From: Desulfosporosinus acididurans
Lineage (GTDB): Bacteria > Bacillota > Desulfitobacteriia > Desulfitobacteriales > Desulfitobacteriaceae
Assembly: GCF_001029285.1 (NCBI RefSeq)
Contig: NZ_LDZY01000004.1
Location: 1-64,000 of the forward strand
DNA length: 64,000 nucleotides
Direction: 5' to 3'
The translations under genes were made by a program, and so were the position numbers. The notes under the pieces are model-generated. The model was not told the DNA's origin. It made no database searches and saw nothing but the letters and a program-made list of their open reading frames with translations. Each line of letters begins with the position of its first letter. The stretch's first letter is position 1. Positions 52,009-63,738 of the stretch are shown here, one piece after another.

Positions 52009-52337
52009 ACATCTTAGTGAGCATGTCGTCGGGCGGCTGAAAAGGGTATAGCGTATTACGTCTTCCTTATATCCCCTATAGCTGTTTGGTATATTACAGT
52101 TTTATCCGGAGGTAATATAATTATCTGCAAAGAATATTGTCGAATCCAAAGTTTTTAAAGTCTTTAAAGTCTTAGAAATAGTACATTCTAGGCCTATCAA
52201 AATCGCTTAATACTCTAAACCCATTATTAAATTTAAAAGCAAATTGCAATTAGAGCTAATGTATTTTTGAACTAATGTATTAACGAAAGCAGATAACCTT
52301 TGTAAGTTTTCTGCATATTTAAATGAGGAGTAGTTCC
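52009..52337 (+). promoter_or_regulatory. Upstream region of the choline microcompartment operon
   Basis: No gene is seen. A direct repeat CTAATGTATT occurs at 52256-52265 and 52272-52281 near the likely promoter, and could be a regulator site. The hairpin-like GGGTATAGCG...ATATCCCCTATAGC lies near 52048-52083. No riboswitch is recognised. Confidence 0.4.
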
Positions 52338-52634
52338 ATGGAATATTTCGGAGAAGAAGCCTTGGGTCTTGTCGAAACAAGAGGGATGGTCCCAGCCATT
52401 CAAGCCGTAGATGTCATGTGTAAAACTGCCGATGTTGTTCTTGTTTCTTATGAAAATATGGGTTCAGGTCTTGTCACAGTCATGGTGAAAGGTGATGTTG
52501 CCGCAGTAAGGTCTGCAGTGGAACAAGGGGCAGCAGCGGCAGCTGCCATTGGTGAAATGGTTGCTGCACACGTTATCCCGCGCCCCATAAGCCGAGTAGG
52601 GAAAATTGTTTCCCGGCATGATATTGATAACTGA
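52338..52634 (+). CDS. BMC-H microcompartment shell protein
   Basis: A 98-residue single BMC domain (ALGLVETRGMVPAIQAVDVMCKTA; SGLVTVMVKGDVAAVRSAVEQGA), which forms the hexagonal tiles of the protein shell. The C-terminus extends slightly (RVGKIVSRHDIDN). ATG 52338 with GAGGAG is chosen over the upstream in-frame ATG 52323. First gene of the operon. Closest to the PduA/EutM-type hexamers. Confidence 0.93.
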   Translation: MEYFGEEALGLVETRGMVPAIQAVDVMCKTADVVLVSYENMGSGLVTVMVKGDVAAVRSAVEQGAAAAAAIGEMVAAHVIPRPISRVGKIVSRHDIDN

Positions 52635-52662
52635 CATGAATTACTTGAAAAAGGGGAATTGC

Positions 52663-52953
52663 ATGGAGAGAAATGATGCCTTGGGATTTATAGAGACCTA
52701 TGGACTTGTATCGATACTTGAGGCTGCAGATGCGATGTGCAAGGCAGCAGACGTAGAACTGGTTGGATATGAGAATGTAGCTTCCGGATTAATTTCTGTG
52801 GTAGTACGTGGTGATGTTGGGGCTGTGAGAACCGCGGTTGAGGCTGGCGTTAAAGCAGCCGAAAAAGTAGGTAAGATTTATAGTACTAATGTTATTGCCA
52901 ACCCTCATCCGGATGTTGAAAAAATTGTCGCTAAGCACGTTATAGATTGGTGA
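52663..52953 (+). CDS. BMC-H microcompartment shell protein
   Basis: A 96-residue BMC domain (ALGFIETYGLVSILEAADAMCKAADVELVG; GLISVVVRGDVGAVRTAVEAG), a paralogue of the preceding shell protein with the same C-terminal HPDVEKIVAKHVIDW type of tail. ATG 52663 with AAGGGGA. Having several non-identical hexamers is normal and tunes pore chemistry. Confidence 0.93.
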   Translation: MERNDALGFIETYGLVSILEAADAMCKAADVELVGYENVASGLISVVVRGDVGAVRTAVEAGVKAAEKVGKIYSTNVIANPHPDVEKIVAKHVIDW

Positions 52954-53000: not shown

Positions 53001-54500
53001 ATGGAGCGGATCGACCAGGATTTACTTTCCATCCAGGAAGCCCGAATACTGGTGGAAAGTGCGCGAGAGGCACAGAAATCTTTGGCAGCATTCCCACAGG
53101 AAAAACTGGACAAAATTGTGGGAGCTATGGCTGCGGAAGTTTTAAACTGTGCCCGGGAACTTGCGGTGATGTCCTCCGAGGAAACGGGGTTTGGTAAATG
53201 GCAGGATAAGTATCTTAAAAATGTCTTCGCCAGCGACTATCTTTTTAAGAAAATCAGAGATATGAACGTCGTTGGTATCATTGCAGAAGACAAAGTCAAC
53301 AAGACCATGGATATTGGCGTTCCCATGGGTGTTATTGCTGCCTTGCCTCCTTCGACAAATCCGGTATCAACAACGGTCTATAAAGCCTTGATTGCCGTCA
53401 AATCGGGTAATTCGATTGTCTTTTCACCTCATCCCAGGGCCCAAAAGACCATTTCCAAAACTCTTGAAATACTGATACGGACGGCTGAAGCTAACGGTTT
53501 GCCCTCGGGAGCAATCGGATATTTAAGGACGGTTACTGTATCGGGCACAGTTGAAATGATGAATCATAAAGATACCGCTTTGATTCTGGTTACAGGTGTA
53601 CCTAAAATGGTTGCTGCTGCCTATTCTTCGGGAAAACCCGTTATTTACGGAGGACCGGGCAATGGGCCGGCATTTATTGAGCGTACTGCCGATATTAAGC
53701 AAGCGGTATCAGATATTATTGCCAGCAGAACCTTTGACAATGGCATCATCTCTGCCTCAGAACAATCAATTGTGGTCGAGGAATGTATCGCAGGGGAAGT
53801 TAGACAAGAGCTGAGAAATAATGGGGCTTGTTTTCTCTCCGAAGGAGAGTCAGAAGAGCTCAGCAAGCTTTTCCTGTGCCCGGATGGCAGTATTAATCCG
53901 GAAATTGTCGGTAAATCAGCTGTCGAGATAGCAGAGAAAATCGGAATGTGTGTTCCTGAAGAAACAAAAGTCTTAATTTCCGAACAGAAATATGTCTCGG
54001 ATTCCAATCCCTACTCGAAAGAAAAACTCTGCCCGGTGCTGGCTTTTTACGTTGAAAAGGATTGGCTTAATGCCTGTGAAAAATGTATTGAATTGTTGCT
54101 AAATGAAGGAAAGGGTCATACTCTTGTTATCCATTCTCGCAATGTGACTGTGATTCGAGAGTTTGCTCTGAAAAAACCGGTTTCCAGACTCTTGGTCAAT
54201 ACGCCTGCCACATTGGGGGGGATTGGAGCGACAACCAATCTTTTTCCGGCCATGACATTGGGCTGCGGTACAGCCGGCGGCGGTTTCACTTCTGATAATG
54301 TTTCGCCAATGAACTTGATTAATATCCGCAAGGTCGGTTACGGCGTTAGGGCTTTGGAAGATATCGCCAGGGGTGCAATAGAGAGGGAAAATTCAGAGAC
54401 GATCAGCGGACATTGTTTCCCTGTGAAGAGTTCTAGGGACCCTTCACAGGATTTGAAAGCTCTGCTGGAAAAATTGCTGGAGCAGCTTGCTGCCCGTTAA
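53001..54500 (+). CDS. CoA-acylating aldehyde dehydrogenase homologue (EutE/PduP-like), catalytic Cys replaced by Ser
   Basis: A 499-residue member of the microcompartment aldehyde dehydrogenase family that turns acetaldehyde, the product of choline cleavage, into acetyl-CoA with NAD. An N-terminal amphipathic helix (residues ~8-30) could target it to the shell interior. The nucleotide-binding region (GVIAALPPSTNPVSTTVYKAL) and C-terminal GGFTSDNVSPMNLINIRKV are normal. The active-site motif, usually FDNG-x-x-CASEQ, reads FDNGIISASEQ: Ser251 (TCT, 53751-53753) stands where the thiol nucleophile should be, so acylating activity is in doubt. ATG 53001 with AAAGGAGG. Confidence 0.9.
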   Translation: MERIDQDLLSIQEARILVESAREAQKSLAAFPQEKLDKIVGAMAAEVLNCARELAVMSSEETGFGKWQDKYLKNVFASDYLFKKIRDMNVVGIIAEDKVNKTMDIGVPMGVIAALPPSTNPVSTTVYKALIAVKSGNSIVFSPHPRAQKTISKTLEILIRTAEANGLPSGAIGYLRTVTVSGTVEMMNHKDTALILVTGVPKMVAAAYSSGKPVIYGGPGNGPAFIERTADIKQAVSDIIASRTFDNGIISASEQSIVVEECIAGEVRQELRNNGACFLSEGESEELSKLFLCPDGSINPEIVGKSAVEIAEKIGMCVPEETKVLISEQKYVSDSNPYSKEKLCPVLAFYVEKDWLNACEKCIELLLNEGKGHTLVIHSRNVTVIREFALKKPVSRLLVNTPATLGGIGATTNLFPAMTLGCGTAGGGFTSDNVSPMNLINIRKVGYGVRALEDIARGAIERENSETISGHCFPVKSSRDPSQDLKALLEKLLEQLAAR

Positions 54501-54532
54501 AGGTTTAAGTAAGTATAAGGGAGGACCATAGT

Positions 54533-57082
54533 TTGAATCCAAAAGACTTTTCAACCAAATTTGCCGATGCCACCAAAAACTTGTCTTCGGATGAAAAGGC
54601 GGCCATCATGAAACTGTTTGAGGGGATTTCCAAGGAATTAACTGTCAACAAACCTAAGCCTTTTTTGGCAAGTGAACCAAAATCGCCTGTATTTGCAGGA
54701 GAAATTACTAGCTTAACGCCGCGTTTGAAACGGTTGCGCGATGCTTATCTAAAAGCAAAACCCAGTGTCAGCATTTATCGTGCCAGAGCTTTTACGCAAG
54801 TAGCCAAAGAAAATCCGGGCATGCCTAAAATTTTGCTGAGGGCTAAATGCTTTCGAAGAGCTTGTGAGACAGCTCCTTTATTAATTCAAAAGGATGAGCT
54901 GATTGTTGGGCATCCTTGCGGAAAACCTCGCACAGGTGCCATTTCTCCGGATATTGCTTGGCGATGGGTTCGGGATGAGCTGGATACAATGGCGACGAGA
55001 CCGCAGGATCCTTTTCAAATCAGTGAAGAGGATAAGCGTGTTTTACGGGAGGAAATTTTTCCTTTCTGGGAAGGTAAAAGTGTTGATGAAATTTGCCAGA
55101 CGCAGTATGAAGAGGCCGGTGTCTGGTCGTTTTCCGGCGAAGCCTATGTTAGCGACCTTTCCTATCATCAACTTAACGGTGGGGGAGATACCTGTCCCGG
55201 TTACGATATTATCCTTATTAAAAAGGGAATTAATGGTGCAAGGCAAGAGGCCGTTGATCAATTAAATAAATTGTCCATGGAAAATCCTGATGACATTGAT
55301 AAAATTTATTTCTACAAAGCGGAAATTGAAACTTGTGACGGAATATTAGCCTACGCCAAACGTCTCTCAGACCATGCCCGGGAACTGGCTGACAGGGAAG
55401 AAGATTTAGAACGTAAAAAAGAACTTTATAAGATCTCTGAGGTTTTGACCTATGTGCCTGCTAATCCGCCGCGAACCTTCCAGGAAGCACTTCAGTCGGT
55501 CTGGACGCTGGAATCCCTCTTTATGGTGGAAGAAAACCAGACAGGAATTTCTCTTGGACGTTTGGATCAATATATTTACCCTATGTACAAAGCCGATATG
55601 GAAGAAGGACGCCTGAACAAATTACAAGCCTTTGAATTAGTAAGCTGTTTCATTATTAAGTGTGCTGAAGTTATGTGGCTGTCCAGTGAAATGGGTGCGA
55701 AATACTTCGCAGGCTATCAACCCTTTATTAACTGTACCGTGGGCGGTCAGAAAAGAACCGGCGGTGATGCGACGAATGATTTAACCTATCTGATCATGGA
55801 TGCTGTTCGGATTACCAGGATGTATCAACCGGCTCTTGCCTGTCGGATTCACAATAAATCACCCCATGAGTATTTAAAGAAAATTGTGGACGTTGTTAAA
55901 GCAGGCCTTGGCTTTCCTGCCTGTCACTTTGATGATACCCATATCAAGATGATGCTTGCTAAGGGTTTCAATATTGAAGATGCTCGTGACTACTGTTTGA
56001 TGGGGTGTGTTGAACCACAAAAGTCGGGCCGAATCTATCAATGGACGTCTACCGGGTATACTCAATGGCCGATCGCGATCGAATTTGTCTTGAACCGCGG
56101 CATGATGAAATGGCATGGAACAATGGAAGGGCTTGACACAGGAGACCTCGATAGTTTTAGCACCTACGAAGAATTTGATGCTGCCTGTAAAAAGCAAATT
56201 GAGCATATTATCCGCTTATCAGCTATCGGTACAGTTATCAGTCAACGTGTTCATAGAGAACTTGTTCCTAAACCGTTGATGTCCCTGCTTGTAGAAGGCT
56301 GCATGGAAAAAGGCACCGATGTGACCAATGGTGGAGCGTTGGTTAACTATGGACCTGGTTTGATTTTCTCTGGGTTAGGAACCTACGCAGATTCAATGGC
56401 AGCCATTAAAAAACTCGTCTATGACGAGAAGAAATATACCCTAAAACAGATTCGTGATGCCCTAAATTCCAATTTTAATGGGTATGAAGCCTTGCGTACG
56501 GATTGCCTGAATGCGCCGAAATACGGGAATGACGACGACTACGCAGACAATATTGCCTCGGATATTATCTCTTGGACAGAACGGGTTCACAATTCCTTTA
56601 AAATGTTATATTCCTTCTTAAGTCATGGTACTCTTTCAATTTCTAACAATACTCCCATCGGAGAAATTACAGGCGCAACTCCTAACGGCCGATTAGCTTG
56701 GACCCCATTGTCTGATGGAATCAGCCCGACCCAAGGAGCGGATAAATTAGGTCCCACAGCCATTATTAAATCCGTTAGCAAGCTGAATAATGATGCTATG
56801 AACATTGGCATGGTCCATAACTTTAAACTTTTACGCGGCATTCTGGAAACCCCGGAAGGAGAAAACGGCCTGATTACGCTGCTCAGGACAGCCTCGATTC
56901 TCGGCAACGGAGAGATGCAATTCAGCTATGTCGACAATGAAGTGTTGAAGAAAGCTCAATTGGAACCTGAGAAATACAGAGACTTAATCATTCGTGTTGC
57001 CGGGTACAGCGCCTACTTTGTCGAACTGTGCAAAGAAGTACAGGATGAGATTATCAGCAGGACCGTTTTGGATCATTTTTAA
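54533..57082 (+). CDS. cutC: Choline trimethylamine-lyase (glycyl radical enzyme)
   Basis: An 849-residue glycyl radical enzyme that cleaves choline to trimethylamine and acetaldehyde inside the microcompartment. The thiyl-radical motif GCVEP has Cys492 and Glu494, and the radical glycine is Gly824 in RVAGYSAYF. Tyr211, Asp219 ([10 protein letters not shown]), Phe398, Thr505 and Tyr509 line up, with a constant offset of three, with the choline-binding residues described for Desulfovibrio alaskensis CutC. A ~40-residue N-terminal helical extension may be an encapsulation signal. TTG start with GGGAGG. The activase gene follows after 26 bases. Confidence 0.96.
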
Positions 57083-57108: not shown

Positions 57109-58089
57109 ATGAGTACAGAATCAACCGGCATCTTAGAGCGCAAAGCGAGGATCTTCAATGTTCAGAAGTATTCCATCTATGACGGGCCAGGCATTCGAAC
57201 CTTAATCTTTTTCCAAGGCTGTCCCCTAAGATGCCAATGGTGTTCAAATCCGGAGGGACTCGAACGAAAATTTCAGGTCATGTACATGGAAGATTTGTGC
57301 GTGCATTGCGGAAGTTGTGTCTCAGTTTGTCCGGAGAATATCCATTATTTCATTAAGGCAGAGGATGAGCCGCAATTCCACAACGAGAGGCCGAGGCATG
57401 ACGTCAACAGAAGCCTTACTTGCAGAGGCTGCCGCAAGTGTGAGACCATATGTCCGCAAAAAGCGTTGTCAATCGCCGGCGCGGATAAATCAATCTCCGA
57501 AATTTTAGAAGTTATTCAGCAAGATTCTCTCTTTTACCTAAGTTCTGGGGGAGGCGTCACTCTTGGGGGCGGCGAGGTTACAATGCAGCCTGAATTTGCC
57601 GCCAATCTCCTCATGGAATGTAAGAATATGGGAATTGATACGGCGATTGAAACCTGCGGTTATGCCAAACTGGATTCGCTGCTCAAAGTGGCCCAATTTA
57701 CAGATTTGATTCTCTTTGATATTAAGCATATTGACTCTGAAAAACATTATGAGCTGACAGGAGTACGCAATGAACGCATTCTAGAAAACTTAGGTGAGCT
57801 CCTGCGCCGCGGCTTTAATGTAAAAATCAGAATGCCGCTGATTCGCGGAATGAACGATAGTCTAGATACAATTCAGCGAACTATGAAATTCTTACAGCCC
57901 TTTAATAAACGTAAAAATTTTCGAGGTATTGATTTGCTGCCCTATCATAAATTGGGCATTAACAAATACAAGCAATTGGCGATGAATTACCCTATTACTG
58001 AAGACTTGAGTTTTAAAGAAGAAGAATTAGAGTCAATAGCTGCTGTGATAAAAGATTACGACCTAGAGGCTAAAATAGTGAAGCATTAA
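57109..58089 (+). CDS. cutD: Glycyl-radical enzyme activase (radical SAM)
   Basis: A 326-residue radical SAM protein that abstracts hydrogen from the CutC glycine. The radical SAM cluster motif is CPLRCQWC (C-X3-C-X2-C) after [14 protein letters not shown]. Two additional 4Fe-4S ferredoxin motifs follow at [12 protein letters not shown] and [12 protein letters not shown], as in CutD-type activases. It lies directly downstream of cutC. Confidence 0.95.
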
Positions 58090-58130
58090 AAGGGCTTAGA
58101 GTGTTTAGGCCGTCAGGACAGAGGGATGTT

Positions 58131-58481
58131 ATGAGTGCAGACGAGTTTGAGCGAAAACGTATAATTCAGGAATATGTGCCTGGCAAGCAAGTTACGCTGG
58201 CTCATATTATAGCTTCTCCCGTTCAGGAATTATACGAACGTCTGGGAATTGAAGAGCGGGGAGCCATCGGAATTGCGACTCTTACTCCTAGTGAGACAGC
58301 AATTATTGCCGGAGATATTGCGACCAAGACGTCTGACGTAGAGATCGGTTTTTTGGATCGTTTCACCGGCTCCTTGGTTATATCCGGCGATGTGGCTAGT
58401 GTTGAAGCAGCTATGACTGCCATTAATGAGACGCTGGAAAAGTTGTTGGGCTTTACTCCTGCGAGGATTACACGTACATGA
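58131..58481 (+). CDS. eutS: EutS/PduU-type BMC shell protein (circularly permuted hexamer)
   Basis: A 116-residue shell protein. It starts [20 protein letters not shown] and continues with [20 protein letters not shown] and [19 protein letters not shown], the permuted BMC domain of EutS/PduU, whose N-terminus forms a small beta-barrel cap over the pore. ATG 58131 (GAGGGA before it) is preferred to GTG 58101. It overlaps the GTPase gene by four bases. Confidence 0.9.
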
Positions 58482-58924
58482 AGAAACGCATTATGGTCGT
58501 TGGACCGACTCAAGCAGGCAAATCTACTCTGGCTAATCTCTTGAATGACACTGATAGACCCTTAAGAAAAACCCAGGATGTTATTTATGGAAAAAACACC
58601 ATCGATACACCTGGTTCCTATATTGAAAACGCTTCTATGTATAAATATTTGATTGCCACTGCTCAAACGGCATCCCATGTGCTTATTCTGCTTGATTCAT
58701 CAAGACCTGTTGATGTTTATCCGCCTGGATTCGCCAAGACCTTTACTTGTCCTGTTGTTGGCGTGATTACCAAGAAAGACTTGGGCCTGGAAAATGTTAA
58801 TTTGTGCACACAGAAGCTATCAGGTATTGGAGTTTCCGAACCGTATTTCTTGGTTTCGCTGAATGATAATACGGGGGCAGCGGCCTTAAAAACACATTTG
58901 CGGCTTGTTGATCAGAAGAAATAA
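58478..58924 (+). CDS. eutP: EutP/PduV-like small GTPase
   Basis: A 148-residue P-loop protein. It has the Walker A motif GPTQAGKST at residue 9, a DTPGSY G3 motif and TKKD for guanine specificity. EutP/PduV proteins accompany microcompartments and have been linked to compartment positioning or acetate-kinase-type activity; the exact role is unsettled. ATGA overlap with the EutS-like gene. Confidence 0.92.
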
Positions 58925-59005
58925 ATTTTAGGTGATAATGAGCAGTGTCTGTAGTGCAACAATGGATCGGGTGCCGAATTGAGATTTCTGAAAGTGGGTG
59001 AGGCC

Positions 59006-59683
59006 ATGAAATTTATAACTGAGATGGAATTACGCGATTTATATCAAAAAGAGCCTTTTACCACCTACTCTTTGGAATCGTCTATAAAGATCACTCCAGG
59101 TGCTCGTCAGTTTTTGGTGGACAGAGGTATCAAGTTGGTACAGCATCAAGAGGCTCAAAGTAATGATGGGATAAGTGTGAGACGTAACAAAGGGATGGGA
59201 GATCAAGGACTGAAAAGCTGCTGTATACAGAGATTACGGAGTACGATGGACACCCTCGAATCTCTTTTCCTACTGGTTGCAGCCGAGCTAATGTCCGGCG
59301 ACGCCATGTTGGCCGAGGAAGTTATAGAACTGGAAAAGTGTTTCCGCAATGTAAAAAATGCTGAACTTCAAGGCTTTCCCCCAGATCCGATAAAATTCTG
59401 GGACTGGTCGGAAGAGGAAATTAAAAATTGCGCCGACAATTTAGTGAAATTATTGGAGATTAATGAATTTCACTCTCGGTTGGCCAATGGCAAAACGGTT
59501 ACTTTGTTAAATTATTTACGCGCTTCACTCAGTGAGCTTGAACCAGCCATTTTAGAAGCATATTGGCTTGAAGAGCAAGAAGTTTGTTCGCGTCAAGATC
59601 TGATTGAAACTGTCAGTGTGATCATTAACATACTCTGCATAATGATGTGGAAATGTCTGGGAGGACAGAAATGCAAACCGTAA
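59006..59683 (+). CDS. EutT-like protein (cobalamin adenosyltransferase family)
   Basis: A 225-residue protein. Its N-terminus (MKFITEMELRDLYQKEPFTT ... LTPG-type ITPGARQFLVDRGI) matches the EutT/EutQ opening module, and the helical C-terminal part resembles adenosyltransferases. CutC needs no B12, so the protein may serve another role or be inherited from a B12-type compartment. ATG 59006, with GGGTGAGG just before it, is preferred to TTG 58979. Overlaps the next frame slightly. Confidence 0.7.
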   Translation: MKFITEMELRDLYQKEPFTTYSLESSIKITPGARQFLVDRGIKLVQHQEAQSNDGISVRRNKGMGDQGLKSCCIQRLRSTMDTLESLFLLVAAELMSGDAMLAEEVIELEKCFRNVKNAELQGFPPDPIKFWDWSEEEIKNCADNLVKLLEINEFHSRLANGKTVTLLNYLRASLSELEPAILEAYWLEEQEVCSRQDLIETVSVIINILCIMMWKCLGGQKCKP

Positions 59684-60513
59684 ATTCTGCGTTTCAAGAA
59701 TGCGATCAACTTGTTCGTGATTTTGAGAAAGTCATTGCCAAGCCTTTGATTAAGAAATCTAACGTCTATTATACAGGGATTGATTTGGGAACTGCCTATA
59801 TCGTCTTAGCAGTTTTGAATGAGAATTATCAGCCTGTTGCCGGGGCGTACCGCTTTGCCAATGTGGTTAAAGACGGGATGATTGTTGATTATATTGGTGC
59901 GATTCGTATCGTTAAAGAATTAAAGCAAGAACTCGAAGAAAAGCTGGGAACTGAACTGATTTTTGCTTCGGCGGCCCTGCCACCGGGAACCTTTACTTTA
60001 GATTCAGGGGCCATTAAGCATGTTGTCCAAGGTGCCGGTTTTGAGATCACCAAATTATTAGATGAACCGACTGCGGCCAATGCAGTACTAAAGATTAAAA
60101 ATGGGGCAATTGTTGATATTGGCGGTGGAACGACAGGGATTGCTATTTTAAAAGACGGTGAAGTGATCTATGTAGCCGATGAACCTACGGGCGGCACCCA
60201 TTTTTCCTTGGTTATTGCCGGGGCTTATAAACTAAGCTTTGACGAGGCGGAACAGTATAAACGGAATCCGCAAAATCACCGGGAATTGATTCCGGTCTTA
60301 AGGCCGGTTATTGAAAAAGTCTCTTCCATTATTAATCGTCATGTCCAGGAATATTCGGTCAAAGAAATCTATCTGGTTGGCGGAACCTGCTGTTTGGCAG
60401 GAATCGAAACGATTATTGCCAAACAAACAAAGCTTCCAACCTACAAACCGCAAAATCCTATGTTTGTCACCCCCTTGGGAATTGCTCTGAACTGCACACA
60501 GGAAATTCAATAG
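59671..60513 (+). CDS. eutJ: EutJ-like Hsp70-fold chaperone
   Basis: A 280-residue ASKHA-fold (actin/Hsp70 ATPase) protein with GIDLGTAYIVLAVL (phosphate 1), IVDIGGGTTGIAIL (phosphate 2) and YLVGGTCCLAG (adenosine region). EutJ is thought to help the assembly or reactivation of compartment enzymes. ATG 59671 with GGGAGG is chosen over ATG 59647. Confidence 0.9.
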   Translation: MQTVNSAFQECDQLVRDFEKVIAKPLIKKSNVYYTGIDLGTAYIVLAVLNENYQPVAGAYRFANVVKDGMIVDYIGAIRIVKELKQELEEKLGTELIFASAALPPGTFTLDSGAIKHVVQGAGFEITKLLDEPTAANAVLKIKNGAIVDIGGGTTGIAILKDGEVIYVADEPTGGTHFSLVIAGAYKLSFDEAEQYKRNPQNHRELIPVLRPVIEKVSSIINRHVQEYSVKEIYLVGGTCCLAGIETIIAKQTKLPTYKPQNPMFVTPLGIALNCTQEIQ

Positions 60514-60530: not shown

Positions 60531-60836
60531 ATGGACTATCGGATTATTAAATCTCCTTCTCAAGGAACTCTGGAGATGCTTTTTCGACGCAAAGGCTCTG
60601 CCTCATCTGTCACGATTGAGAATTACGATGCTGTAGGCTTAGTTCAGGGACGACTCATTGATATGGTGTATGCTGCCGATATCGCAGAAAAAGCTGCAGG
60701 AGTTGTCGTGGAAGATATCAAGGGGCATTGTCCGCAGCATCTGATCATGATTGCCCTTTTCGGGGATACGGCATCAGTGGAAGCAGCCATTCAAGAAATA
60801 CGAGACAAACTAAATAAAACAGGTGAAATGCAGTGA
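60531..60836 (+). CDS. BMC-domain shell protein with N-terminal extension
   Basis: A 101-residue protein. A ~30-residue leader (DYRIIKSPSQGTLEMLFRRK) precedes a compact BMC-like domain (YDAVGLVQGRLIDMVYAADI; LIMIALFGDTASVEAAIQEI). The leader is unlike that of the other hexamers in this operon. GAGCGG lies before ATG 60531. The stop overlaps the next gene's GTG start. Confidence 0.82.
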   Translation: MDYRIIKSPSQGTLEMLFRRKGSASSVTIENYDAVGLVQGRLIDMVYAADIAEKAAGVVVEDIKGHCPQHLIMIALFGDTASVEAAIQEIRDKLNKTGEMQ

Positions 60837-61117: not shown

Positions 61118-62446
61118 TTGGATCTTCTGGACATGATTAGGGATGCAGGAGTTATAGGGGCAGGAGGAGCTGGATTTCCAACTCATGCCAAGCTAACTTC
61201 GAAAGCAGAGTATATCTTGCTCAATGGTGCTGAATGTGAACCTCTTTTGCGGGTGGATCAACAACTGATGGTTCAGTGCGCCGATGAAATCATCATGGGA
61301 TTAGCTGCAGCAGGAAGATATATTGAGGCCAGAAAGGCTATTATCGGGATTAAAGGCAAACATAAAGAAGTTATCGCCCACATGCGTGCAAGAATCGCTG
61401 CTCAGGGCCTTGAAAGTTACCTGGAAGTTATGGAACTTCGGGATATTTATCCCGCCGGAGATGAACAGGTTTTGGTTCATGAGTTAACCCGGCGAATTGT
61501 TCCGGAAACGTCTATCCCTTTGAAAGTTGGGTGTGTTGTAATCAATGCTGAAACCGCACTCAACGTATTTAATGCCATGTCCGGAAAACCTGTGACGGAA
61601 ACCTATATCACAGTCGCAGGGGATATACCTCAGCGTCTGACTGTCAAAGTACCCGTCGGTTTGCCAATCCGTGAGCTCTTCAATCAATGCGGCATAGACA
61701 ATTTAGAAGACTATGCTGTTATTGATGGAGGCCCCATGATGGGGTCTATTCTTAAGACCTTGGATGGTCATGTCACCAAGAAAAGTAAAGGCTATGTTTT
61801 GCTGAAAAAAGATCATTTTCTCATGCGCAAGAAGTCAGTCAATCTCGATCAAGCACGGGTTATCAGCAAAACGGCTTGTGAGCAATGTAGAATGTGTACC
61901 GACTTGTGCCCGCGTTATCTCTTAGGTCATAATCTTCAGCCTCATAAAGTTATGCGGGCTTTGAACTACAATCTCGAAGATGTTAAAGAACAACAAATTG
62001 CTTTATTGTGTTGTGAATGCAATGCCTGCGAATTATTCTCCTGTCCGGCAAATCTCCACCCCAGGTCTATTAATCGTTATTTCAAAGGCAAGCTGGCAGA
62101 ACAGGGGATTAAATATCAACCGACAACCATGGAATTTCAGCCGAGAGAGGCTAGAGACTATCGCCTAATTCCAACCAAACGACTCATTGCCAGAATTGGC
62201 TTAACAGAGTTTGACAAACCGGCTCCGCTGACTAACGTCAATTTTCAGCCCCATTATCTGACGATTGCTTTGCGTCAGCACATTGGAGCCCCGGCAATCC
62301 CAGTAGTTGCTGCAGGTGAACAAGTTCAAGCCGGTCAGATGATCGGGAAAATCCCCGACAACAGTCTTGGGGCTTCAGTTCATGCCAGCCTGGCAGGTAC
62401 TGTTAGGGAAATTACCGATAACGCTATTGTAATAAAGGTGGGTTAG
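61118..62446 (+). CDS. PduS/RnfC-like flavin and iron-sulfur electron-transfer protein
   Basis: A 442-residue protein of the RnfC/PduS family. It has an N-terminal nucleotide/FMN-binding region (GVIGAGGAGFPTHAKL), an SLBB-like domain, and two 4Fe-4S clusters at CEQCRMCTDLCP and CCECNACELFSCP, followed by a RnfC-type C-terminal barrel. In Pdu systems PduS reduces cobalamin; in a glycyl radical compartment it may pass electrons through the PduT-like shell protein, recycling NADH or feeding the activase. TTG start with CGGAGGTGG. Confidence 0.9.
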   Translation: MDLLDMIRDAGVIGAGGAGFPTHAKLTSKAEYILLNGAECEPLLRVDQQLMVQCADEIIMGLAAAGRYIEARKAIIGIKGKHKEVIAHMRARIAAQGLESYLEVMELRDIYPAGDEQVLVHELTRRIVPETSIPLKVGCVVINAETALNVFNAMSGKPVTETYITVAGDIPQRLTVKVPVGLPIRELFNQCGIDNLEDYAVIDGGPMMGSILKTLDGHVTKKSKGYVLLKKDHFLMRKKSVNLDQARVISKTACEQCRMCTDLCPRYLLGHNLQPHKVMRALNYNLEDVKEQQIALLCCECNACELFSCPANLHPRSINRYFKGKLAEQGIKYQPTTMEFQPREARDYRLIPTKRLIARIGLTEFDKPAPLTNVNFQPHYLTIALRQHIGAPAIPVVAAGEQVQAGQMIGKIPDNSLGASVHASLAGTVREITDNAIVIKVG

Positions 62447-62447
62447 T

Positions 62448-62996
62448 ATGTTTAGAGCAATTGGAATGATTGAGGTTACTAGTATTGCAAGAGGAATTTT
62501 CGCAGCTGACCAGATGCTCAAAACTGCTTATGTTGACGTGGCCAGTGCTACTTCTGTCTGTCCTGGCAAATATATCACGATCGTTCACGGAGATGTAGCA
62601 GCGGTTGAAAGCTCTGTTAGTGCAGGTGTTGCTGTAGCAGGAGAATATTTGGCTGATAGCTTTGTTCTTCCCAATGTTCATCAAGGGGTTTTCCCGGCTA
62701 TTACGGCAACAACGGTACCGGAAGGTACTGGTGCGCTTGGAATTATAGAGTCATTTTCCATGGCAACCATGATTACCGCTGCTGATGCAGCCCTAAAAGC
62801 CGCCGATATTCAGGCTCTGGAACTTCGCCTGGGCAGGGGACTTGGCGGCAAAGCGTACTTCACCTTCACCGGAGATGTTGCCGCAGTAGAAGCCGGTATT
62901 GAAGCTGGGAAAGCCATTGCTCTGGAAAAAGGATTGCTCGTTGATACGGAAGTAATTCCTTCGCCATCTGAGCGATTATGGAGCTCTTTATTGTAA
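62448..62996 (+). CDS. pduT: PduT-like trimeric BMC-T shell protein with 4Fe-4S cysteine
   Basis: A 182-residue protein with two BMC domains in tandem (AIGMIEVTSIARGIFAAD; ALGIIESFSMATMITAAD). Cys38 in SVCPGKY matches the cysteine that, three per trimer, binds a 4Fe-4S cluster at the PduT pore. It probably conducts electrons between the cytosol and the lumen with the PduS-like protein encoded just upstream. Confidence 0.93.
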   Translation: MFRAIGMIEVTSIARGIFAADQMLKTAYVDVASATSVCPGKYITIVHGDVAAVESSVSAGVAVAGEYLADSFVLPNVHQGVFPAITATTVPEGTGALGIIESFSMATMITAADAALKAADIQALELRLGRGLGGKAYFTFTGDVAAVEAGIEAGKAIALEKGLLVDTEVIPSPSERLWSSLL

Positions 62997-63060
62997 AGCT
63001 GAATTTTTTCTTCCTATATAATGTATGCATTTTAAAGATTCAGTGAAAGGAGGTGTGATC

Positions 63061-63738
63061 TTGAAAAAACTTGTTTGCGCCGATGAGGTGAAAGCAGCAG
63101 CAGCAAAGGGACAAAAAATATTCTGTGTTGAGGGCAATGCGATTATTACACCTTCAGCCAGGGATATGGCTAAAGATTTGGGGATAGAATTCACTGAAGG
63201 TTCGGTTCCTGCAGTAGACCATAGTTGCAATGTAAGTGAAATGCAGAAGGATACAATCCGAGGAACAGAGATAGACAGAGATTTGATCTATCAAGTGGTC
63301 AAGGCCGTTTTGATGAATAAGGTTTTGCAAAATAGCTCATTGTCTGTTCCTGTAACACCGTTTTTGTCAGAGAGTGAACCGAAAAGCGGACTAAAAATTG
63401 TGCGGGGCAGAACAGTAAATTTTGAAAAGTTTGATACAGGAAATTCAAGTTCCAACGTGGCGTACCGAGAAGTTGTCAGTCAACATGATTCTCAAATGAG
63501 TGCGGGTTTTTTAACGATTGAAAAGTCCAGTTTTGATTGGGAATTATGTTATGAAGAGATTGATATTATTCTCGAAGGAAGCCTGTCCCTCACTATAAAT
63601 AATAAAACCTATGAGGCCTGCCAGGGTGATGTTCTTTTTATACCGAAAGGTTCGAAGGTAACTTGGAGTTCTACCGGGTATGTCAAACTCTTCTATGTAA
63701 CCTATCCGGCAAACTGGCCTGACCTTAAGGCAGAATAG
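63061..63738 (+). CDS. eutQ: EutQ-like cupin protein
   Basis: A 225-residue protein. The N-terminal module (KLVCADEVKAAAAKGQKIFC; ITPSARDMAKDLGIEF) resembles the EutQ/EutT opening, and the C-terminal half is a EutQ-type cupin (EEIDIILEGSLSLTINN; GDVLFIPKGSKVTW). EutQ has been linked to compartment assembly and acetate kinase activity. TTG 63061 with a strong AAAGGAGGTG site is preferred to ATG 63025. Confidence 0.9.
   Translation: MKKLVCADEVKAAAAKGQKIFCVEGNAIITPSARDMAKDLGIEFTEGSVPAVDHSCNVSEMQKDTIRGTEIDRDLIYQVVKAVLMNKVLQNSSLSVPVTPFLSESEPKSGLKIVRGRTVNFEKFDTGNSSSNVAYREVVSQHDSQMSAGFLTIEKSSFDWELCYEEIDIILEGSLSLTINNKTYEACQGDVLFIPKGSKVTWSSTGYVKLFYVTYPANWPDLKAE

Follow-up and report, generated by a model that had tools for sequence, protein, structure and literature searches.

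A conserved aldehyde dehydrogenase paralogue with serine in place of the catalytic cysteine beside cutC in a GRM1-type choline microcompartment locus

The choline microcompartment locus and its two aldehyde dehydrogenases

The window analyzed, the whole stretch of 64,000 nucleotides at positions 1-64000 of contig C4 in the 4.64-Mb genome of Desulfosporosinus acididurans, contains near its end a choline microcompartment operon on the forward strand. Two EutM-like BMC-H shell proteins (52323-52634 and 52660-52953) are followed by an open reading frame at 53001-54500, with an ATG start at 53001 and a product of 499 aa that belongs to the EutE family of aldehyde dehydrogenases. Downstream lie cutC, encoding choline trimethylamine-lyase (54533-57082; TIGR04394, 1566.5 bits against a cut-off of 1050), and cutD, encoding the CutC-activating radical SAM enzyme (57109-58089; TIGR04395, 516.8 bits against a cut-off of 360). 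These are followed by genes for an EutS-like shell protein (58101-58481; NF012012), an EutP/PduV-like GTPase (58478-58924; TIGR02528), EutJ (59647-60513; NF011660), a small BMC protein considered GrpU-like by its CPQH motif (60531-60836; Pfam BMC), a PduS-like flavin/Fe-S protein (61118-62446; Complex1_51K, RnfC_N and Fer4_17), a PduT-like tandem BMC-T shell protein (62448-62996; two stretches matching Pfam BMC) and EutQ (63025-63738; PF06249). The operon continues beyond the window with a further BMC protein (contig 63750-64358), a Cys-type EutE-type aldehyde dehydrogenase (contig 64449-65939) and pduL (contig 65929-66582). The locus is of the GRM1 type, combining PduS, EutP, EutQ and EutJ with a CutC that has a short N-terminal extension, the model match of this protein beginning at residue 62 of 849. 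The small protein at 60531-60836 is likely the Fe-S shell protein GrpU, alongside PduT and PduS. At 58979-59683, a 234-aa protein shows a weak match to the EutT cobalamin adenosyltransferase, although the locus contains no evident B12-dependent enzyme; this protein is conserved in place across most relatives, yet fast evolving.

The initial annotation had pointed to serine at residue 251 of the 499-aa protein, a position where acylating aldehyde dehydrogenases have cysteine, and this reading is confirmed. The codon at 53751-53753 (+) is TCT, and the surrounding motif FDNGIISASEQ occupies 53733-53765, within which the originally noted span (53741-53763) falls. Immediate proximity to cutC also holds, with 33 bp from the end of the gene to the TTG start of cutC at 54533. 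The protein, hereafter the Ser copy, scores 652.9 bits with TIGR02518, the NCBIfam equivalog for EutE-type acetaldehyde dehydrogenase (cut-off 620.1), but Ser251 breaks the FDNGxxC(A/S)SEQ motif that carries the catalytic cysteine of these enzymes, and the cofactor motifs TGG and GVGxGN are not intact, reading TGV and YGGPGN. The accompanying remark that no second thiol lies nearby was inexact, as Cys262 is only 11 residues away from position 251. We rejected Cys262 as a relocated nucleophile because it is equally common in the active paralogues, occurring in 40/54 of them.

The second aldehyde dehydrogenase begins 450 bp past the end of the window, out of reach of the initial annotation, adjoins pduL and belongs to the same operon as the Ser copy, to which it is 46% identical. 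It has the motif FDNGTICASEQ and is therefore an enzyme of the pathway with a normal active-site motif, in agreement with the earlier suggestion that acetaldehyde might be handled by another dehydrogenase. The locus thus has the two AldDhs of GRM1, one of them with Cys replaced by Ser or Pro, and the combination of one non-Cys and one Cys copy was found in all relatives whose locus was covered end to end. An origin of the Ser copy as a recent duplicate of the active copy was rejected, as its clade groups with other Cys-type dehydrogenases (50-59% identity) and not with the Cys copy of its own operon, in a part of the tree where the inner branches have moderate support only.

Conservation of the non-cysteine copy and its linkage to cutC

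Relatives were drawn from named genomes (42 loci) and from whole-genome searches. Alignment of homologues, which had been proposed as a check for the recurrence of serine, revealed Ser in 36, Ala in two and Pro in one of the 39 full-length orthologues, which come from many Bacillota genera, and Cys in 54/54 Cys-type enzymes. A sequencing or assembly error at 53751-53753 had been one of the explanations first offered, TCT and TGT being a single base apart, but it is ruled out by the presence of Ser, Ala or Pro in 39/39 full-length orthologues from independent genomes, including that of the nearest named relative, Desulfosporosinus sp. FKB (94% identity for the Ser-copy protein), and we regard its probability as negligible. 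The absence of the cysteine is genuine, ancient and conserved.

Nor is it a rarity, as the initial annotation had implied. Loss of the cysteine in one GRM1 AldDh has been known since 2014 and is a regular feature of GRM1 choline loci: in the portions of the two accounts drawn on here, Axen et al. (2014) report that, in each GRM1 locus with two AldDHs, one of them has Ser or Pro (PMC4207490), and Sutter et al. (2021) describe a putatively inactive second AldDh copy in GRM1A and GRM1B (PMC8217296). The gene in the window is one more member of this group and differs from it in nothing essential, sharing cutC/cutD, PduS, EutP, EutQ, EutJ, the two AldDhs and the Cys to Ser replacement. The same portions of both accounts make no mention of Ala251, of the Gly to Val/Tyr changes in the pocket or of linkage to cutC; what is added here is the single origin, the pocket remodelling, the cutC linkage and a natural disruption.

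A tree of 99 proteins placed all 39 non-Cys sequences in one clade (SH-aLRT 100) on a stem branch of 1.11 changes per site, and the other 60/60 proteins have Cys. A still more divergent copy (L172) has Pro at the catalytic position. In all loci with sufficient coverage, cutC follows the non-Cys copy directly or with one intervening gene the length of an alcohol dehydrogenase; a few short loci end before the cutC position. In a sample of 398 Bacillota genomes, CutC scored over the cut-off in 14, and 12/14 of these had a non-Cys copy; the two without it (L170, L171) are from the same genus and have GRM1-like cut loci. One genome (G706) has two different Ser-type copies, in L138 and L145, each adjoining a partial cutC at the end of its stretch, and possibly contains two choline loci.

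Purifying selection acts on the Ser copy. Across the same genome pairs (n=68), with dN/dS calculated by NG86 for pairs with dS under 2, the Ser copy had a median of 0.086, compared with 0.057 for the Cys copy. The Ser clade keeps 88/118 of the positions that are invariant in Cys-type enzymes. Nevertheless, the gene is not strictly required, because a deletion plus a frameshift has broken it in a Desulfosporosinus genome assembled as a single contig (G017; L094:13027-14467), where cutC and the Cys copy are intact beside it, and because L170 and L171 are without the gene. These same cases, together with evolution slightly faster than that of the Cys copy, are what a decaying duplicate without function would predict. 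Such decay is nonetheless very unlikely, given that the gene is intact in many genera after its long stem, that its dN/dS is about 0.09 and that the clade has new invariant residues of its own. Other apparent disruptions were not retained: the in-gene stops in G029 and G074 are probably the genes' own stop codons read through at the alignment end, and that of Desulforamulus aquiferis (L048) was set aside on suspicion of poor assembly quality, because its other ALDHs are broken too.

Cofactor pocket and predicted fold of the Ser copy

Among the otherwise invariant positions that the clade has changed, three lie in the active-site region, namely residue 251 and two more. Codon 200 (53598-53600, +) specifies Val where the TGG loop on the NAD side has an invariant Gly, so that the motif here reads TGVP; residue 200 is Val in 39/39 clade members versus Gly in 54/54 Cys-type enzymes. 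At codons 216-217 (53646-53651, +), Tyr-Gly replaces the invariant Gly-Val of GVGPGN, with Tyr216 in 37/39 members versus Gly in 54/54 Cys-type enzymes; residue 217 is Gly instead of Val in 36/39. When NAD binds to the Clostridium phytofermentans enzyme, it is the TGG loop that shifts position (PMC4762007), residues 200 and 216 being assigned to the NAD side by motif and not by alignment to 4C3S. Other residues of the site are mostly kept, namely His373 (the base), Glu341 and Asn120, although three members have lost His373 and six have Ser in place of Asn120. Their retention would leave room for residual ligand binding.

These data bear on whether the protein might perform different chemistry, with Ser251 or a relocated thiol such as Cys344 carrying out acyl transfer, an esterase reaction or some other reaction. 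Cys344, which lies beside Glu341, is shared by all 39 clade members, Cys-type enzymes mostly having Thr or Ser there, and His373 and Glu341 are mostly kept, all of which speaks for this explanation. However, two members have Ala at position 251 and one has Pro, as does the divergent L172 copy, and the loss of His373 in three members further weighs against it. Covalent chemistry at residue 251 is unlikely in view of the natural Ala and Pro and of the altered cofactor motifs. As a moved nucleophile, Cys344 is a weak candidate and was rejected, because five Cys-type enzymes have it too and L172 has Ala in its place. On balance, different chemistry appears quite unlikely. In related enzymes, replacement of the catalytic Cys by Ala or Ser abolishes activity (PMC4762007, PMC5311937). 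Of the three options initially put forward, lost activity is the one supported by sequence; base error falls away, and different chemistry is disfavoured by the natural Ala/Pro at 251 and the altered cofactor pocket.

An AlphaFold2 model of the Ser copy (pLDDT 80.1, pTM 0.72, with active-site loops of low confidence) has the three-domain ALDH fold, and its best matches are acylating ALDHs, with a Z score of 49.1 and an rmsd of 2.6 over 442 aligned residues for 3k9d, and a Z score of 47.2 and an rmsd of 2.2 over 440 aligned residues for 5j7i. Both alignment and model point to a C-terminal amphipathic helix of the encapsulation-peptide type at residues 482-499 (54444-54497, +), after a flexible linker; in the model, the helix spans 482-498 and is preceded by a low-confidence stretch at 463-483. 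Type I AldDhs have a C-terminal encapsulation peptide according to the part of PMC8217296 considered, and the predicted helix would give the Ser copy the same feature. The protein therefore resembles EutE/type I acylating dehydrogenases (TIGR02518; 3k9d, 5j78) in fold, length, a score over the cut-off and the C-terminal helix, and differs from them in its lack of the catalytic Cys and in the altered Gly200 and GVGPGN motif.

Possible role in the choline microcompartment

The replacement of Gly200 and Gly216, together with the natural occurrence of Ala and Pro at residue 251, indicates a conserved pseudoenzyme. Because the fold is conserved, a helix ends the protein and cutC lies next to the gene, the best reading is a structural or assembly role. 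We infer both the absence of catalysis and this role, and propose that the Ser copy is a conserved pseudoenzyme that probably contributes to the GRM1-type choline microcompartment as a structural or assembly subunit, the acetaldehyde being oxidised by the Cys copy. According to this proposal, a paralogue of the acylating acetaldehyde dehydrogenase would have lost its catalytic thiol once, long ago; the cofactor pocket would then have been remodelled, with the fold and encapsulation helix kept by purifying selection. Acetaldehyde produced by CutC would be oxidised by the Cys-bearing dehydrogenase of the operon, and PduL would convert the acetyl-CoA to acetyl phosphate. The putatively dead copy, whose gene directly precedes cutC, would be packaged with CutC and may join the enzyme core and the shell, either by itself or as part of mixed tetramers that include the active copy.

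The main rival of this structural reading is a regulatory pseudoenzyme that, instead of acting as a scaffold, would tune activity or a private cofactor pool through mixed tetramers or through binding of CoA or a nucleotide. E341 and H373 of the CoA/cysteine activation site are mostly conserved, ALDHs of this type are tetramers (PMC4762007), and every locus covered whole has the Cys copy in the same operon. On the other hand, Val200 and Tyr216 should perturb the nucleotide cleft, the gene is more closely linked to cutC than to the active copy, and mixed tetramers are not assured at only 46% identity between the two proteins. A regulatory role is thus a possibility worth keeping in mind, albeit somewhat unlikely. 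A more specific version of the structural proposal, which we put forward tentatively and hold to be rather unlikely, is that the dead dehydrogenase is devoted to the assembly of CutC, which it would bind, package and perhaps shield; the lost active site, with Val200 and Tyr216, would in that case now bind a specific protein or ligand.

A possible parallel, and the element that would fill this assembly role in GRM2 compartments, is the dead N-terminal extension of GRM2 CutC (PMC6325248), likewise a non-catalytic copy of a pathway enzyme that has been proposed to organise a choline microcompartment. That extension is part of CutC itself and derives from a glycyl radical enzyme, whereas the protein in the window is a separate ALDH paralogue. 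No experimental study of the Ser-copy protein was found in the literature searched, beyond which papers may exist. Trimethylamine, the product of choline microcompartments, is important both for gut health and in methane-producing sediments, and why many of these compartments retain a dead copy of a core enzyme is a question standing since 2014. The present comparison makes it testable by defining residues 200, 216 and 251, a likely partner in CutC, the Cys copy as operon partner and a natural disruption.

A minor observation concerns the gene found between the Ser copy and cutC in many relatives, which encodes an iron-containing alcohol dehydrogenase in L008 (L008:11491-12660) and, by similarity, in other loci. 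It is absent from the window locus (54500-54533) and from many other Desulfosporosinus loci, and the nearest Fe-ADH of the D. acididurans genome itself, 44% identical, is on a different contig. Loci without this gene that were covered over the right span carry pduS, and pduT too where the span reaches it, which suggests that, in these loci, electron export by PduS/PduT may stand in for the alcohol dehydrogenase in the recycling of NAD+.
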